This document shows positions 2,610 through 21,157 of a stretch of 23,556 bases of DNA, in pieces. A model generated the notes under the pieces. It searched no databases. It had not been told where the DNA came from and saw nothing but the letters and a program-made list of their open reading frames with translations. The stretch is from a virus. The stretch spans positions 1 to 23,556 of IMG/VR virus record IMGVR_UViG_3300017735_000104, one strand, 5' to 3'. Positions within the stretch are counted from its first letter, which is position 1. Each line of letters begins with the position of its first letter. The translations under genes and the position numbers were made by a program.

Positions 2610-3406
2610 AATTTATTAAAATAAGGTTTAGACCAATTGGCTTTATTCATGAGTCTAGCTCGACTCTTTGGTTTTTGTTTTTGTTCTGGTTCCCAATTAA
2701 TCCAAACGGGTCTTTTGTTTTGTTTATTTGTAGTTACTTTAAATTTTTCAATTGATTGGTTTTCTTTATTCTTAAAGTGTATACTAATTAATATTCTAGG
2801 CCCAATAGTATCAACTTTATGATATTGGTATTGTGGTATGTATAGCAAATCACCTGGTTCTAAAATAAACTCTTCTGCTATTTCAGTTGGTTTATTAGGT
2901 GCAAACTCTTTATACACTGTCCATTTAGTTTTACCTTGTGTATGGAATAAAAAGTTTTCAGTTCCATCTGCATGAGCTGGAAATGATTTTGAATTAGCTT
3001 TAGGCGAGGCATACACGTTAGCTTGCCCAGGACCAAAATACTTTTCAAACTCAAAGCATATATTAACTAATCCTTCTTTTTCATATTCAACAAATGGAAT
3101 AACAAAAGTTCTATTTTTGTCGGCCCATTGTTTATACATGTCTTCTTTAGATAAAAACACCTCTTTTAATTTCTTATTTCGTACTTTATCTAAACACCAT
3201 CGACCATCGCCTTTTTTACGATAATCAATAATTTGTAAACCTTTTACGTGTGGATATCTATTTAAATAATTATTAAAATCATCCCACGTGAATAAATCTT
3301 TAAATTTATTTCTTCTAATAACTAAGTGTCTTTTACCCCAATAATTTTTAAAGAAGTTTGCAACACCTACCGGTTCTAATATTTGTTCTATTGTTATTTT
3401 ATCCAT
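2606..3406 (-). CDS. JmjC/Cupin_4-type Fe(II)/2-oxoglutarate oxygenase
   Basis: A 266-residue protein related to the Cupin_4 (ribosomal oxygenase/YcfD-like) family. The N-terminus has the family phrase F-x-x-x-YWGKRHLVIRR. The iron-binding facial triad is visible as H145-x-D147 (FPAHADGTENF) and H196 (QYQYHKV), and LEPGDLLYIP before it is the usual cupin turn. Members hydroxylate ribosomal proteins or other protein side chains using 2-oxoglutarate and oxygen. A phage copy could modify a host ribosomal or RNA polymerase protein, or prepare an acceptor for the glycosyltransferases next door. Overlaps nrdA by 8 bases and the cupin by 4. Confidence 0.75.
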   Translation of the reverse strand: MDKITIEQILEPVGVANFFKNYWGKRHLVIRRNKFKDLFTWDDFNNYLNRYPHVKGLQIIDYRKKGDGRWCLDKVRNKKLKEVFLSKEDMYKQWADKNRTFVIPFVEYEKEGLVNICFEFEKYFGPGQANVYASPKANSKSFPAHADGTENFLFHTQGKTKWTVYKEFAPNKPTEIAEEFILEPGDLLYIPQYQYHKVDTIGPRILISIHFKNKENQSIEKFKVTTNKQNKRPVWINWEPEQKQKPKSRARLMNKANWSKPYFNKL

Positions 3407-5123
3407 CGCAAGCTAAACAGTTTTCATCCATAGCTTGTTCAGCAATATCGCCTCTAAGCACAGATTCGGTTCTCATATAATATAATGTTTTAATCCCTTT
3501 TTTCCATGCAGCCATATGAACTTTATTAATCCACTTAGGAGATGCAACAGCCGGGAAGGCTAAGTTTAAACTAACTGATTGATCAATATATTGTTGACGT
3601 ATACCAGCTTGGTTAACTAATTCTAATTGATTTATTTCTTTAAATGTTTTAAAGACTTCTTTTAAAGGTATATCATTATACTTACCTATCATAATGTTAT
3701 CAAGTGCTTTTATACCTTGTACTGAACCACCATCTTTTAAGATTCTGTTCCAGATTTTTTCGTTGTCAAGTTTATGTTTCTTTAGAGCTTTTTTAAGCGT
3801 AGGGTTTTTCCGTATGAACGTGCCTTTTGCGCTTTGCTCAGTAAATACGTTTGCAGCCCAAGGTTCGATACCTGGGGAAACATTTCCACTAAGTTTGCTA
3901 TTGCTGACAGTAGGAGCAATAGCGCGTAAATGAGTGTTACGCATAGCAGAGCCGCGACACCAAAGGGGTTCCCCGAACTCCTCAGCCAATGCCATAGACG
4001 CTCTTTCCGATTCAATTTTAATTTGACTAAATATTCTTCTTGTTTCATATTGTGATAATAATCCTTCAAAAGGTAAACCTTTTTCTTGTAAGTATGTATG
4101 CCAACCTAAAACTCCTAATCCTAATGCTCTTCCTTTTTCAGCTGATCTTACTGAATTATGAAATCCAACTTTACCTTTTGATTTTTGTATAAATTCTTCT
4201 AAGACACCATCTAAAAACCATATACTATCGTATATTAGATTTGTGTTTTTCCATTCATCGTACTTAGCTATATTTAACGATGATAAACAACAAACGAATG
4301 AATGTGATTCATCAGTATGTAATGTAATTTCACTACATATGTTTGTCATGTGTACTTTTAAGCCGTGCTTTCTGTAAGCTGCTGGGTTACCCTTGTTTGT
4401 ATTTCCCTTAAATAAAATATAAGGTTCTCCAGTTGCTTTACGTTTTTGAAGTAGCTTACCCCATAACCTCCTCGCATCTTTATCTCCGACATCAAGTCTT
4501 CGCATGAACTTGTCGCCGACCACAACGCACTGGTGTAAGTTGAGCGACTGACGATTAACGTCTCCTTTAGGTTCTCTAATTTCCAACCACTCTTCAAAGT
4601 CGGGGTGATCAATATTAATATTAACGCTTGCAGCTCCTCTTCGGACAGATCCTTGATTCGTCGCGAGTATAGTGCTATCGTAGATTTTACAAAAAGGCAC
4701 AGTTCCATCAGATGTTCCATTTCCAGTTATATTTGCGCCAGCGGGTCTGATCATATTAAGTCCGATACCAACTCCACCGCCGTGCTTTGCGAGTAGCATC
4801 ATCTCTAGGTTTTTCATTCCGATCTCATATATTGAGTCCCCTACATCAATACCAAAACATGATATTGGCAAACCTCTATCTGTGCCTGTATTAGACAACA
4901 CAGGAGAAGCTAAACATAGCCAACCTTTCCATATGTAATCAAAAAAGATTTCAGCCAATTCTGGGCGATTTAAACGCTTAGCTACAGCAACACAAACACG
5001 TGTATAAGCTTCACGTGGAGTTTCACCATTGAATAAATAACCACCAGTTATAGTTTTTTTGTAAACATCAGTATCTCCCCAGCTAGGGTAATCAATACCT
5101 TTTTTCCAATCTTTATTCCACAT
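3399..5123 (-). CDS. nrdA: Class I ribonucleotide reductase, large subunit
   Basis: A 574-residue R1 subunit that reduces ribonucleotides to deoxyribonucleotides with the NrdB radical. Visible active-site residues: first redox Cys C89 (PISCFG), the NICSE loop with N261, thiyl C263 and E265, second redox Cys around C278-C279 (FVCCLSS), the radical-transfer pair Y548-Y549 (KTLYYMRT), and C-terminal shuttle cysteines C569 and C572 (ENCLACDG). At 574 residues it is far shorter than E. coli NrdA (about 760) and begins directly with the catalytic region, so the N-terminal ATP-cone is absent and overall activity regulation is probably lost, as in many phage enzymes. It forms a unit with nrdB, separated by a small membrane protein gene. 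Confidence 0.95.
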   Translation of the reverse strand: MWNKDWKKGIDYPSWGDTDVYKKTITGGYLFNGETPREAYTRVCVAVAKRLNRPELAEIFFDYIWKGWLCLASPVLSNTGTDRGLPISCFGIDVGDSIYEIGMKNLEMMLLAKHGGGVGIGLNMIRPAGANITGNGTSDGTVPFCKIYDSTILATNQGSVRRGAASVNINIDHPDFEEWLEIREPKGDVNRQSLNLHQCVVVGDKFMRRLDVGDKDARRLWGKLLQKRKATGEPYILFKGNTNKGNPAAYRKHGLKVHMTNICSEITLHTDESHSFVCCLSSLNIAKYDEWKNTNLIYDSIWFLDGVLEEFIQKSKGKVGFHNSVRSAEKGRALGLGVLGWHTYLQEKGLPFEGLLSQYETRRIFSQIKIESERASMALAEEFGEPLWCRGSAMRNTHLRAIAPTVSNSKLSGNVSPGIEPWAANVFTEQSAKGTFIRKNPTLKKALKKHKLDNEKIWNRILKDGGSVQGIKALDNIMIGKYNDIPLKEVFKTFKEINQLELVNQAGIRQQYIDQSVSLNLAFPAVASPKWINKVHMAAWKKGIKTLYYMRTESVLRGDIAEQAMDENCLACDG

Positions 5124-16298: not shown

Positions 16299-16576
16299 AA
16301 TCTCTTTTTTAAATTTTCAATTCTTTTCTTCATAAATGCAGCATGCTCATACTCTTCATCTTCTTCATATCTTTTCATCACTAGCTCAAGCTGGTTTATT
16401 TCTTCTAATATAATTTCTTTTTCGGAAGTAGCAAATTTTATTAATCCTTTATCTTCCTTTTGTCGCAAGACATCAGCTCCATAAGTAGCTGTTTCAGGGT
16501 TTAAGAATTCGTCGTATAAATCTTGTTTAATACGATCATATAATTCTTGGTACTCTTCTTCACTCATATTATCCAT
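16295..16576 (-). CDS. Acidic coiled-coil protein with UVR-like C-terminus
   Basis: A 93-residue protein. The C-terminal part LVMKRYEEDEEYEHAAFMKK resembles the UVR motif of UvrB/UvrC (E-x-Y-E-x-A-A-x-x-R/K-x-x-I), a short helical hairpin that mediates UvrB-UvrC contact. The middle is strongly helical and acidic. The first codons overlap a promoter-like element: MDN and a second ATG at 16567 (MSEEEYQELYDRI) are alternative starts, and the latter is more likely if the element is a promoter. It leads the ligase gene in the leftward train, overlapping by 4 bases. Confidence 0.65.
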   Translation of the reverse strand: MDNMSEEEYQELYDRIKQDLYDEFLNPETATYGADVLRQKEDKGLIKFATSEKEIILEEINQLELVMKRYEEDEEYEHAAFMKKRIENLKKRL

Positions 16577-16591
16577 ACTATTTCGTATTTA
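16564..16591 (-). promoter_or_regulatory. Two-block promoter-like element, copy c
   Basis: On the minus strand this reads TAAATACGAA, 7 bases, GGATAATATGA. The TAA of the upstream gene's stop at 16589 is inside the first block, and the start of the downstream gene (16295-16576) lies inside the second. If it is a promoter, transcripts would begin within or after the annotated start. It is the only copy before the ligase-to-glycosyltransferase gene train. Confidence 0.65.
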
Positions 16592-17098
16592 GTTTGCAAT
16601 ATTTTTTAATAATTCCATTAATTTATTACTATGGTATTCTAAATCTTGGCATTTACCTTTCATGAATCTAGTTTCACCTTTTTCAAAATCAGTATATTCT
16701 AAATCTTCCCAATACTTTTGAATAATTTTATCAGGTGTTAATACAAATACATTTTCATTACTATATTGGTCCCAACAACTTATCCATATATCGTCTTTAC
16801 CTGTCCATATAATATAAGTATATTGGTGGTCTATATGTTGGTGATCTGCATATAAATAGCAACTGTCATAGTAATTATCGTATACTAATTTTGAAGCCAT
16901 TGCAGCACCGTCTTGTCTAGCGTTAACATTACACCATTGAGCTAATTGTACACCTTGCCATGAAGGATAACCATCATGGTGTATATACATATTTACATAG
17001 CTATTGTCCGCGTATACACACGGATCAGCGGCAAAACCTTCTGAATGATTTTCCGCGTGTTGCCTATTGACAACCATTGTACAGTTTCTTGTGCTCAT
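16589..17098 (-). CDS. 169-residue protein with MYIHHDGYPS motif, function unknown
   Basis: A 169-residue protein. The segment MYIHHDGYPSWQGVQLAQWC recalls the H-x-DGYP phrase found in a phage protein family; the family function is not known to me. Seven Trp and many Tyr and His in the second and third quarters, plus TYIIWTGKDDIWISCWDQYS, suggest a beta-rich globular fold. The N-terminus MSTRNCTMVVNRQHAENHSE has no signal peptide. It begins 2 bases before the next gene's end and ends inside promoter-like copy c. Confidence 0.75.
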   Translation of the reverse strand: MSTRNCTMVVNRQHAENHSEGFAADPCVYADNSYVNMYIHHDGYPSWQGVQLAQWCNVNARQDGAAMASKLVYDNYYDSCYLYADHQHIDHQYTYIIWTGKDDIWISCWDQYSNENVFVLTPDKIIQKYWEDLEYTDFEKGETRFMKGKCQDLEYHSNKLMELLKNIAN

Positions 17099-18006: not shown

Positions 18007-18022
18007 ATTGTATTTAATTTTA

Positions 18023-18050
18023 TTATATTATCCAATTTGTTTCGTATTTA
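18023..18050 (-). promoter_or_regulatory. Two-block promoter-like element, copy b
   Basis: Minus strand: TAAATACGAA, 7 bases, GGATAATATAA. It lies between the stop of the 51-residue membrane protein gene (18056) and the start of the 17773-18006 gene, with about 20 bases of A/T-rich leader to the ATG. Spacing and orientation fit a promoter for that gene. Confidence 0.7.
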
Positions 18051-18055
18051 GTTCG

Positions 18056-18211
18056 TTAAACCATTTCCTCATATATACCAATTAACTCGCTGATTATCAG
18101 TACAATACAAGACACTACAATATTGAATGGTAGTAGTGCATACCCGACAATTCTTACTATACTCTTCAGAATTGACACATAAAAATGTTTCTTTGCATTT
18201 GGGTGTTCCAT
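18056..18211 (-). CDS. 51-residue membrane protein downstream of a tRNA-like element
   Basis: A 51-residue ORF starting MEHPNAKKHFYVSILKSIVR, followed by a long hydrophobic stretch (about residues 18-46) likely to span the membrane once or twice. A longer frame upstream reads through the tRNA-like elements (the residues GSNPATST are a classic tRNA 3' shadow), so I start at 18211, two bases after the tRNA-like 3' end. Function unknown. Confidence 0.55.
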   Translation of the reverse strand: MEHPNAKKHFYVSILKSIVRIVGYALLPFNIVVSCIVLIISELIGIYEEMV

Positions 18212-18213
18212 AG

Positions 18214-18313
18214 TGGACGTGGCAGGATTCGAACCTGCGTTATTAAAATTAGCTGGGTTGCTATTATAAGCGAGTATACTCTCCCTTAATTTTAATCTAA
18301 CCAATTCACGCCC
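18214..18313 (-). tRNA. tRNA-like element, 100 nt, with a long hairpin in the anticodon-arm position
   Basis: The 5' arm GGGCGTG pairs with the 3' arm CACGTCC (7 bp with one G-T), followed by a discriminator A. Directly inside the 3' arm is a perfect T-arm, GCAGG/CCTGC with the canonical loop TTCGAAT (18222-18238). After the 5' arm comes AATTGGTTAGATT, a D-loop-like piece with GG. In place of an ordinary anticodon arm stands a stem ATTAAAATTA/TAATTTTAAT extended by GGG/CCC, about 55 bases in total. No clear anticodon loop. It could be a type II tRNA with an insertion, a degenerate tRNA, or a tmRNA-like RNA (acceptor, D-loop, long P2, T-arm). No CCA is encoded. Confidence 0.6.
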
Positions 18314-18319
18314 TAAAAA

Positions 18320-18420
18320 GGTGAGGCAGGTCTGCTCCCGTTTACACGCCACTGATTAATCACTTCAGCAGTTCAAGTGTACGCTACCTAGACTTTTAAA
18401 GACCCGAATTGGTCCTCACC
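18320..18420 (-). ncRNA. 101-nt element closed by GGTGAGG/CCTCACC, tRNA-sized
   Basis: A 7-bp perfect closing pair bounds the element, and TTTTTA separates its 3' end from the tRNA-like element, like a tandem tRNA pair. Inside are hairpins GACC/GGTC near the 5' end and CACTT/AAGTG (a 9-base loop) near the middle. The T-arm position shows CGGG-AGCAGA-CCTG, not a canonical T-loop. G+C is higher than in flanking genes. It may be a degenerate tRNA, or a structured RNA of another kind; strand is assumed from its neighbours. A 7-bp pair at this distance could arise by chance. Confidence 0.35.
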
Positions 18421-18432
18421 CATAGATTTTAT

Positions 18433-18624
18433 TTATTTTCTACGCCAAGCTTTATGTACTGAGGCCGACACTTCTTGCGAAACGATCTGTACTTCGAGTA
18501 CTTGTTTGTTTGCGATAATTGGTACATAACTATATTGTTGTGTTGTACTACAATTAACACAGGTATTATAACCTAGCTTGACTCTACCTATTGGTATTAT
18601 ATTATTGCATTTGCATTTTCTCAT
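18433..18624 (-). CDS. 63-residue zinc-ribbon-like protein
   Basis: Begins MRKCKCNNIIPIGRVKLGYN then TCVNCSTTQQYSYV. Cysteines in C-x-C and C-x-x-C (residues 4, 6, 22 and 25) make a four-Cys zinc ribbon or DksA/TraR-type zinc finger; the LG-x-x-x-C-x-x-C-S-T arrangement resembles the C-terminal finger of DksA/TraR-family phage proteins. The C-terminus is basic. Such proteins bind RNA polymerase or DNA. It starts directly after promoter-like copy a, with the ATG only about five bases past the second block, implying a very short leader. Confidence 0.72.
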   Translation of the reverse strand: MRKCKCNNIIPIGRVKLGYNTCVNCSTTQQYSYVPIIANKQVLEVQIVSQEVSASVHKAWRRK

Positions 18625-18628
18625 ACAA

Positions 18629-18656
18629 TTATATTATCCATTAGTATTCGTATTTA
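18629..18656 (-). promoter_or_regulatory. Two-block promoter-like element, copy a
   Basis: Minus strand: TAAATACGAA, 7 bases, GGATAATATAA, then TTGTATGAG where the ATG of the zinc-ribbon gene begins. If transcription starts 6-8 bases past the second block, the mRNA would be nearly leaderless. The upstream side is the tRNA-Met. Confidence 0.7.
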
Positions 18657-18667
18657 GTTTGTATTAG

Positions 18668-18740
18668 TTGCGCTGGCCGGATTCGAACCGACGACCTTTG
18701 GGTTATGAGCCCAACGAGCTGGCCACTGCTCTACAGCGCT
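18668..18740 (-). tRNA. tRNA-Met (anticodon CAT)
   Basis: A 73-nt cloverleaf on the minus strand: acceptor AGCGCTG paired with CAGCGCA (6 of 7 pairs, the first A-A mismatched), D-arm GAGC/GCTC with loop AGTGGCCA, anticodon arm TTGGG-CTCATAA-CCCAA with CAT at 18705-18707, and T-arm GTCGG-TTCGAAT-CCGGC. Discriminator A at 18668; no CCA encoded. A CAT anticodon can belong to elongator Met or to an Ile tRNA whose C is modified; the sequence does not decide. Confidence 0.9.
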
Positions 18741-18819: not shown

Positions 18820-19023
18820 AAGTGAGGCGGACAGTACTGGAATGTTAGAGATGCCCCGATTTCCGGTGGGCCGGGTTTCGGGAACGACTTATACTCTTTT
18901 CTCTGTTTATCCTGTCTTTCTGGCAATTCACTTATGTGTAGAAATCCATCAAATAACCAACAAGTGGTCAGCTTCAAATCTACCTAATTAAGCTACTCGT
19001 CCTTCCAACCTTAAACCTCACTT
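18820..19023 (-). ncRNA. G+C-rich 204-nt structured RNA candidate
   Basis: No convincing ORF lies here, yet the stretch 18824-18890 is far richer in G+C than the rest of the window. AAGTGAGG and CCTCACTT (8 bp) bracket it, with GGAC/GTCC inside. A nested stable hairpin CCCGA..CCGG-loop-CCGG..TCGGG (about 18855-18882) is the clearest fold. The 5' part, read on the minus strand, contains GTAGCTTAATTAGGTAGA (a D-arm-like phrase), AGCTT/AAGCT, and TGACC-ACTTGTT-GGTTA, an anticodon-arm-like hairpin. Function unknown; a tRNA-derived or larger ncRNA is possible. On the minus strand the 3' end runs into TTTTTATATA. Confidence 0.45.
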
Positions 19024-19204
19024 ATTGTATTTCGTTATACATTTTGGTAATCGCTAACTCCATAACGTGCGAGTGTATAGCATTATACTCATCGCCGTCT
19101 TGTGGGTAGTCTTCCAATTGCCAATGTTTACTATCATACATTAATTCTTTTGTTACTTCTGCAATTCCGTCAGCAATTGCATCTAATTCTTTCATTTTAC
19201 TCAT
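19022..19204 (-). CDS. 60-residue hypothetical protein
   Basis: Starts MSKMKELDAIADGIAEVTKE and ends MELAITKMYNEIQ. Acidic, helical, with Trp-Gln-Leu in the middle (KHWQLEDYPQDGDEYNAIHS). Two candidate starts, 19204 and 19195. Its stop overlaps the edge of the G+C-rich RNA element. No family recognised. Confidence 0.65.
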   Translation of the reverse strand: MSKMKELDAIADGIAEVTKELMYDSKHWQLEDYPQDGDEYNAIHSHVMELAITKMYNEIQ

Positions 19205-19706: not shown

Positions 19707-19923
19707 ATTGTGCTTGCCATTTTAAATTTTCTTTTCTATTATCAATATAATTATCGATTTTATCTTGCATCTCAGTGATAGTTATAGCACCGAATGATAC
19801 AGTATTCAAGCCATCGAGTAATTTTTCGTCTTCACAATGATAACCTGTTGCTAATCTACCGTCGAATGTTGTCCACTCGTGGTAAGTGTAAGGTACTTTT
19901 CTGTATTTATATTCTTTATTCAT
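19651..19923 (-). CDS. 90-residue hypothetical protein
   Basis: Starts MNKEYKYRKVPYTYHEWTTF, then GRLATGYHCEDEKLLDGLNT, and ends EYYEKYGTVGEF. The C-terminal half looks like a helical coiled region rich in Lys and Glu. It is the first gene after promoter-like copy d, whose second block ends about 6 bases before the ATG. No family recognised. Confidence 0.7.
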   Translation of the reverse strand: MNKEYKYRKVPYTYHEWTTFDGRLATGYHCEDEKLLDGLNTVSFGAITITEMQDKIDNYIDNRKENLKWQAQYDKAEAEYYEKYGTVGEF

Positions 19924-19928
19924 ATCAA

Positions 19929-19956
19929 TTATATTATCCGATTTTGTTCGTATTTA
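19929..19956 (-). promoter_or_regulatory. Two-block promoter-like element, copy d
   Basis: Minus strand: TAAATACGAA, 7 bases, GGATAATATAA, then TTGATATGAAT (start of the 19651-19923 gene). The element overlaps the end of the preceding gene (19934-20170): its last codons NTNKIG and stop TAA lie inside both blocks. Confidence 0.7.
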
Positions 19957-20170
19957 TTCTGTAATCATTCCACCTACCAGTGTAAGCATATGATTTTCCT
20001 TTTCTAAAAGTACTTTTTTGTTGTACTTTGTATCTTCTGTTACCCATTCCACTACAAGGACCAAATACTTTTGCTACTTCATAATGAGAATGTGCTTGTT
20101 TTCTCTTCTTTTCTTCTACATATTTCAGTAGTTCTTTCATATTATTTACTTTCATACTTATATTATCCAT
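19934..20170 (-). CDS. 78-residue basic protein with Gly/Arg/Lys-rich centre
   Basis: The central part PCSGMGNRRYKVQQKSTFRK followed by GKSYAYTGRWNDYRINT is basic with alternating aromatics, like a small nucleic-acid-binding fold. The first codons (MDNIS) come from promoter-like copy e; later Met codons at 20155 (MKVNN) and 20140 (MKELLKYVEEKKRKQ) are better starts if transcription begins just downstream of that element. The 3' end lies inside copy d. Function unknown. Confidence 0.65.
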   Translation of the reverse strand: MDNISMKVNNMKELLKYVEEKKRKQAHSHYEVAKVFGPCSGMGNRRYKVQQKSTFRKGKSYAYTGRWNDYRINTNKIG

Positions 20171-20185
20171 TTAAATTCGTATTTA
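20158..20185 (-). promoter_or_regulatory. Two-block promoter-like element, copy e
   Basis: Minus strand: TAAATACGAA, 7 bases, GGATAATATAA, then GTATGAAAG. The TAA stop of the upstream gene (20183-20362) is the first three bases of the element. The ATG of the downstream gene as annotated lies within the second block. Confidence 0.7.
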
Positions 20186-20362
20186 GTTTGTAAGTTTTCC
20201 GTCAACTGTATAGTGTCCGTATAGTTTACCATTTACTCTATATTCATTGCAAACTTCATGAGTTTCAATTATACCTAGAACATCTTCTCTAGTTAGTTTA
20301 TCTTCCATTTGCATACCTATTGCCCAAGTAAGATCATTTCCGTAGTTATCTTTATATATCAT
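20183..20362 (-). CDS. 59-residue hypothetical protein
   Basis: A short ORF encoding MIYKDNYGNDLTWAIGMQME, with ETHEVCNEYRVNGKLYGHYT and ending VDGKLTN. The C-terminal repeats V-N-G-K-L-Y and V-D-G-K-L look like beta turns. Its ATG overlaps the stop of the 105-residue gene (ATGA). Function unknown. Confidence 0.6.
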   Translation of the reverse strand: MIYKDNYGNDLTWAIGMQMEDKLTREDVLGIIETHEVCNEYRVNGKLYGHYTVDGKLTN

Positions 20363-20873: not shown

Positions 20874-20894
20874 ATTATTATTATTTATTTACAC

Positions 20895-20922
20895 TTATAT
20901 TATCCATAACACTTCGTATTTA
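20895..20922 (-). promoter_or_regulatory. Two-block promoter-like element, copy f
   Basis: Minus strand: TAAATACGAA, 7 bases, GGATAATATAA, then GTGTAAATAAATAATAATATG leading to the 20673-20873 gene. This copy has the clearest A/T-rich leader. Upstream is a 235-base non-coding region. Confidence 0.72.
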
Positions 20923-21157
20923 GTTTATAAGTAAAAGTAGGTAAATTGTTTACTAATGTGAAATAGTTTACAGATGTAACACTCACTGTCTACTTGAGTG
21001 AATTAAAAAAAAGTATGACACTAGGTATATAAGGTTTAATAGTAGGTAGCTAATGTCACTGTTTTTATTGTGTTTACTAAGATATTAAGGAATTTAGGTG
21101 GTGCTATACACAGTATGCTATACACCATACCTCTACAGTGTGGTAGTTTGAGTAGAC
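20923..21157. other. Non-coding region with short repeats
   Basis: No ORF is supported here. Short repeats: TGTTTACTAA at 20947-20956 and 21071-21080, and GCTATACAC at 21103-21111 and 21117-21125 (14 bases apart, one of them inside a GTATG/CATAC hairpin). A poly-A run (TTTTTTTT on the minus strand) lies near 21005. A minus-strand hairpin CACTC/GAGTG is at about 20980-21000. It could be regulatory or a replication origin; nothing decides. Confidence 0.4.

Follow-up and report, generated by a model that had tools for sequence, protein, structure and literature searches.

The stretch analysed here (the window: all 23,556 nucleotides of IMG/VR virus record IMGVR_UViG_3300017735_000104) carries a minus-strand cluster in the order E5, E4, tRNA-Met, a gene for a 63-aa protein, E2 and E1. 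E5 is about 204 nt long, is read from 19023 down to 18820, overlaps with its 5' end the TAA stop of the preceding ORF (19022-19204, minus strand), and recurs with identical sequence in the independent record L007. It is a noncoding structured RNA gene of a marine bacterial virus, its transcription being inferred; its anatomy is well supported, and its function is an inference. The features are as follows:

18820-19023, minus strand: E5, the whole structured RNA, a scaffold F holding cassette A (itself holding B) in arm 1 and a hairpin in arm 2
19016-19023, minus strand: 5' strand of helix P1, AAGUGAGG, pairing with 18820-18827; covariation
19003-19007, minus strand: UGGAA, proposed pseudoknot strand, partner UUCCA at 18838-18842
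18922-19002, minus strand: cassette A, arm 1 of F, with a loop-E-like AGUA/GAA internal loop and a GCUUA/UAAGU helix; model match E=2e-12
18941-18980, minus strand: cassette B, nested in A; also found in D (L011, L061, L118) and in A (L009, L055, L080)
18888-18921, minus strand: middle strand of F (AGAAAGACAGGAUAAACAGAGAAAAGAGUAUAAG), including the 5' strands of P3 (18910-18916) and P4 (18894-18896)
18855-18885, minus strand: arm 2 hairpin, GUUCCCGAAACCCGGCCCACCGGAAAUCGGG, an exchangeable arm
18820-18854, minus strand: 3' strand of F, with GCAU, P4 3' CUC, UUCCAG, P3 3' UACUGUC and P1 3'
18820-18827, minus strand: 3' strand of P1, CCUCACUU, followed by a U run; covariation of P1
18748-18810, minus strand: E4, a small RNA-like element with closing stem GAGGGCAC/GUGUCCUC
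18667-18740, minus strand: tRNA-Met (CAT)
18433-18624, minus strand: 63-aa protein CxC...CxxC...SVHKAWRRK, a conserved gene beside RNA arrays
18320-18420, minus strand: E2, closing GGUGAGG/CCUCACC and UUUUU, with cassette K (18333-18390)
18211-18313, minus strand: E1, a tmRNA tRNA-like domain without a tag reading frame, with a G3-U70 acceptor pair

A sequence-only reading had already singled out E5 as a G+C-rich island, and 200-base windows over it indeed have a G+C of 0.435-0.52 against about 0.30 around it; the homologous arrays of relatives average 0.42, compared with 0.34 for their loci. The complementary ends AAGTGAGG/CCTCACTT (18820-18827 and 19016-19023) and the nested hairpin CCCGA...CCGG...CCGG...TCGGG (18855-18885, now arm 2) that were reported are present exactly, and the reservation that the 8-bp closing pair might be chance can be dropped, since relatives have GAGAGG/CCUCUC, GAGAAG/CUUCUC or GGUGAGG/CCUCACC. 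The supposed D-arm-like phrase belongs to cassette A, of which it forms one strand, and is not a tRNA D-arm; neither ARAGORN nor Rfam recognised a cloverleaf in E5. The proposal of a structured RNA stands, with compensatory changes in several helices and motifs conserved over dozens of contigs, as does its non-coding status, there being no conserved reading frame and both in-frame stops and indels in relatives; what escaped that reading was the modularity, the parts common to other RNAs, and the tag-less tmRNA in the same cluster.

Folding energy is unremarkable on both strands (z = -0.79 for the minus and -0.90 for the plus strand) and is therefore not used as evidence, which is instead comparative: compensatory base changes in A and F go beyond those in shuffled and slid controls. 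E5 matched no Rfam family at the gathering score or at E<=1 with permissive filters, and permissive thresholds applied to the window, the arrays and the relatives gave nothing convincing beyond tRNA and tmRNA. The strand is established as minus, as for tRNA-Met and the local genes, because G-U pairs that are invariant or recurrent (18-45 in an A helix, GU in 43 of 43; 6-94 in F) would turn into A-C mismatches if the plus strand were the one read.

Relatives were gathered through the phage DNA ligase (the near-identical record L007 and 46 further loci) and through module pattern searches, which placed A in 39 stretches, the tmRNA 3' end in 62 and the F 3' strand in 17. Judged by primase, the closest phages in culture are Cellulophaga phi10:1 (44%) and Tenacibaculum and Flavobacterium phages, from which we infer that the host is probably a marine Bacteroidetes. 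No module was matched in cultured phages, the stretch of phi10:1 that was read has no annotated tRNA, tmRNA or other RNA gene and lacks module A, and module A is also absent from 84,980 bacterial and archaeal species genomes.

The outer frame of E5 is a three-strand scaffold closed by the helix AAGUGAGG/CCUCACUU, and 16 full members, the window included, have in common the strands GAGGUUUAAGGUUGGAA, GAC(A/G)GGAUAAA…CAGAGAAAAG…UAUAAGUC and GCAU…CUAACAUUCCAG…GUCCGCCUC, with two arms between them that vary among the phages. In arm 1 the window carries A(B), L122 an A whose loop is short, L008 and L137 carry J, L123, L124 and L126 carry N, and L153 has a plain hairpin. In arm 2 the window has the CCCGA…UCGGG hairpin, L152 has CCCGC…GCGGG, L154 has K and most members have M; a near-identical copy of the window's hairpin stands free in L106 with a closing stem of its own. 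The helices of F are demonstrated by covariation in 13 sequences (seven pairs with double changes; score 0.289 against 0.152 shuffled), with compensatory changes in P1, P3 and P4. The UGGAA/UUCCA pseudoknot could form in every member, but it remains unproven because its strands are nearly invariant.

Cassette A, represented by 43 distinct sequences, consists of three helices, all with compensatory changes, around two invariant loops, AGUA/GAA (loop-E-like) and AUUAG/ACA. Ten of its 15 pairs show double changes, its covariation score is 0.430 against 0.142 shuffled and at most 0.083 slid, and its covariance model (R1) finds not only the window (E=2e-12) but also, with helices paired, L010 (E=1.4e-12), which had been left out of the training set. 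In cassette N the motif strands are invariant and closing pairs -2 to -4 are paired in 44 of 45 cells, changing together among A-T, C-G, G-C and T-G types. Loop strands that stay invariant while the helices around them co-vary point to selection on the motif itself.

At the other end of the cluster, E1 has the tRNA-like domain expected of RF00023 (acceptor stem, T-arm, G3-U70) and lacks the tag reading frame or mRNA-like domain and the pseudoknots. It matches the tmRNA model at E=1.6e-12, just 35 nt standing against 302 positions of the model, and its 35.9 bits against RF00023 lie under the curated cut-off of 47. E1 belongs to a scaffold type, T, whose tmRNA identity is clear: the median length of 90 distinct T elements is 96.5 nt, and G3-U70, the alanine identity pair, is kept in 83 of the 90 while the neighbouring acceptor pair varies (C-G, A-U, G-C, U-A). 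From G3-U70 we infer that E1 would be alanylated and bound by SmpB. Prevalence was also established, a tmRNA-like element being found in 15 of 18 phage records of 53-72 kb and a SmpB gene in none of the 18. In L157 (record G014, 3054-3134) there is an 81-nt tag-less tmRNA that scores 63.9 bits, above the Rfam cut-off, with a D-loop-like GGTATTGACG, which possibly lies near the ancestral host-derived form.

What ties these scaffolds together is that their contents are exchanged. A carries more than 20 different inserts between its two conserved strands, 20 of 41 recurring inside T, which likewise carries many; 40 of 105 inserts have a partner in the other scaffold (none of the shuffled inserts does), and the 59 A-T pairs at E<1e-3 include several identical over 34-38 nt, among them 38/38 and 34/34 nt. 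A hosts B, C, D, M, N or P, T hosts C, D, J, N or P, D hosts B or C, and B hosts C, so that nesting reaches four levels, as in L011, which reads T(D(B(C))). Whole elements also follow one another in arrays, L158 for example having A(N), H, another element, M and T(P) consecutively, and in 78 non-redundant arrays 10-mers common to at least three arrays cover 64% of the bases, against about 1% when shuffled. The arrays turn over quickly: among 99 phage pairs whose 63-aa genes are at least 85% identical, 63 have less than 30% of the next 200 nt alignable, and between the window and L009, with 63-aa genes 94% identical, none of it is. E5 falls within a large, hitherto unrecognised family of small RNAs whose conserved blocks are nested and swapped among related viruses.

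Nesting produced by assembly chimeras was considered and rejected, because identical nestings recur across independent metagenomes, base pairing is kept intact at their junctions, and two records have exactly the same E5. Among further observations on the arrays, the element at 2957-3066 of L158 (record G015), AGTACAGTATCACGG...GCATGCACGGTGGAAGTCCGA...AGATAACTGTAT, recurs in L028 and others and has no Rfam match, and L009 has an extra tRNA-Asp (4279-4353) separating A(B) from tRNA-Met, a place taken in the window by the remainder of F and by E4.

How would such RNAs work? By inference, E5 would be transcribed with the leftward genes, released as a stable RNA and folded as F(A(B), hairpin). The scaffolds (F, A, H, T and others) can be described as helices interrupted by invariant internal-loop motifs, each helix end being able, it would seem, to accept another cassette, and therefore new RNAs could arise when whole cassettes are exchanged or inserted in register. 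The shuffling might come from the recombination proteins encoded in the window, an annealing protein of Erf type and an exonuclease of RecE type. The conserved loops presumably bind proteins, no partner having been shown, and the RNAs most likely work in trans, as stable decoys or platforms by which RNA-binding factors of the host would be occupied. For T these factors would be SmpB, AlaRS and EF-Tu, with the result that host trans-translation would be damped, as reported for tag-less tmRNA; F and A may have an analogous role. We judge the decoy role most likely because one scaffold is of a known inhibitor type and because conserved motifs together with fast rearrangement resemble an interaction under changing selection; it is only extrapolated from T, since F, A and most cassettes have no tRNA-like feature. 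Our belief is evenly divided on the reading as a whole, a combinatorial family built by cassette exchange whose RNAs are most likely trans-acting decoys or platforms, with transcription, processing, protein binding, decoy role and recombination route all inferred.

Several other explanations have to be weighed against this. The elements could be cis-acting punctuation, structures of 3'-UTRs that act as terminators, stabilisers or processing marks in compact polycistronic phage mRNAs, with the tRNA-like T serving RNase P and a closing helix plus U run serving as terminator; arrays do often begin in or just after stop codons, ahead of the next gene, and U runs follow P1 and E2 in the window's subgroup, yet most F members have none (CCUCUCAAAU), and punctuation has no need for invariant internal-loop motifs, for G3-U70 or for several different RNAs in a row, which leaves it unlikely though still worth keeping in mind. 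The observation itself, a closing helix followed by a U run, applies to the window at 18820-18827 and 18320-18326 (minus strand) and to L009, L010 and L154, and an intrinsic terminator could be a second role there. Alternatively, the cassettes could be neutral or selfish, hairpin ends being interchangeable caps and the shuffling merely recording recombination in a fast-mixing phage pool, as the very different inserts tolerated by one scaffold and the large turnover beside conserved genes might suggest; with loop strands invariant while helices co-vary, and with G3-U70 kept by T, we find this improbable. We also hold out only a slim chance that the cassettes are architectural joints of RNA-only particles or scaffolds, in spirit like GOLLD and ROOL, for which the many recurrent internal-loop motifs, the loop-E-like motif in A and the phage tRNA neighbourhood, as reported for GOLLD/ROOL (PMC12286853), can be cited, but the elements are merely about 60-260 nt, and neither the GOLLD nor the ROOL covariance model matched E5 or the arrays. 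Finally, the 107-aa plus-strand and 62-aa minus-strand open frames that overlap E5 both start with TTG and are broken by stops and indels in relatives, and with the covariation also contrary to it a protein-coding or chance origin is refuted, with virtually nothing left in its favour.

Returning to the trans-acting decoys, a bolder version is that this phage lineage runs a combinatorial RNA system, in which a pool of protein-binding motifs is shuffled among scaffolds, decoy tmRNAs included, so that the set of trans-acting RNAs diversifies to counter host factors of translation quality control or defence as these change. We put this forward tentatively and doubt it more than we credit it; if true, it would parallel, in RNA, the modular anti-defence proteins.

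As a rule, a structured noncoding RNA belongs to a fixed family with a single architecture. The stable RNAs of the T4 tRNA cluster, species 1 and 2, are small, lie in the tRNA region of a phage and have no known function; they are not known to be modular. Single parts of the system described here do have precedents, namely tag-less tmRNA and ornate phage RNAs near tRNAs. Mycobacterium phage DS6A encodes, like E1 and T, a tRNA-like domain without a tag frame ("TLD only"; PMC4131195, PMC11915505), and tag-less tmRNA is reported to inhibit tmRNA strongly, perhaps via SmpB titration (PMC4131195; PMC11915505, citing Mao et al. 2009). By comparison, T is widespread in one marine phage lineage, has exchangeable cassettes in place of the mRNA-like domain and is one scaffold among several, E5 itself not being tmRNA-like. 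GOLLD and ROOL, too, are ornate phage RNAs whose function is unknown and which often lie close to tRNAs (PMC12286853), but they are much larger, and cassette exchange between different scaffolds was not found described for them. Marine phages also encode full or two-piece tmRNA (e.g., OM43 phage Melnitz; PMC9004378), which keeps tag coding, whereas T elements have neither tag nor permutation. Nested cassettes exchanged between scaffolds had no earlier description in Rfam, cultured phages, bacterial genomes or the open-access literature within a limited search, and the novelty lies in the architecture and mode of evolution, not in a proven function.

RNA blocks here behave like protein domains, with invariant internal-loop motifs and free helix borders, re-nested within one phage lineage. 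This amounts to a natural experiment that can show which RNA motifs keep their fold and activity whatever surrounds them; it also supplies many new RNA motifs whose ligands are unknown and a testable case of RNA-based interference with ribosome rescue in marine bacteria, along with a caution that mosaic RNAs are missed by single-family covariance models.

The neighbours of E5 deserve mention as well. A homologue of the 63-aa protein is encoded in 119 of 150 loci, with non-coding arrays directly downstream in most, and it is a possible partner of the RNAs. It has no Pfam family, and searches of Pfam, PHROGs, PDB and viral folds gave no named family; its predicted fold (mean pLDDT 82, pTM 0.44) has no match among solved structures (PDB) and matches two uncharacterised viral proteins in the viral fold search. 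A conceivable resemblance to the DksA/TraR zinc finger gained no support from these searches. The K strands of E2 also occur in L126 and L154. E4, for which no relative was found among the loci compared, has an 8-bp closing stem and also contains GGAGGAA-ATG-AGT-GGT-TAG, possibly a three-codon ORF with a Shine-Dalgarno-like site. Furthermore, a repeat of about 40 nt, AAATACGAAT...AATGGATAATATAATT (minus strand), precedes many minus-strand genes and recurs in relatives; it probably serves as a promoter of the phage, perhaps one recognised by the sigma factor that the phage encodes (12890-13657), and its copies lie at:

16566-16604, minus strand: repeat copy
18022-18056, minus strand: repeat copy
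18624-18663, minus strand: repeat copy
19920-19963, minus strand: repeat copy
20152-20192, minus strand: repeat copy
20890-20929, minus strand: repeat copy
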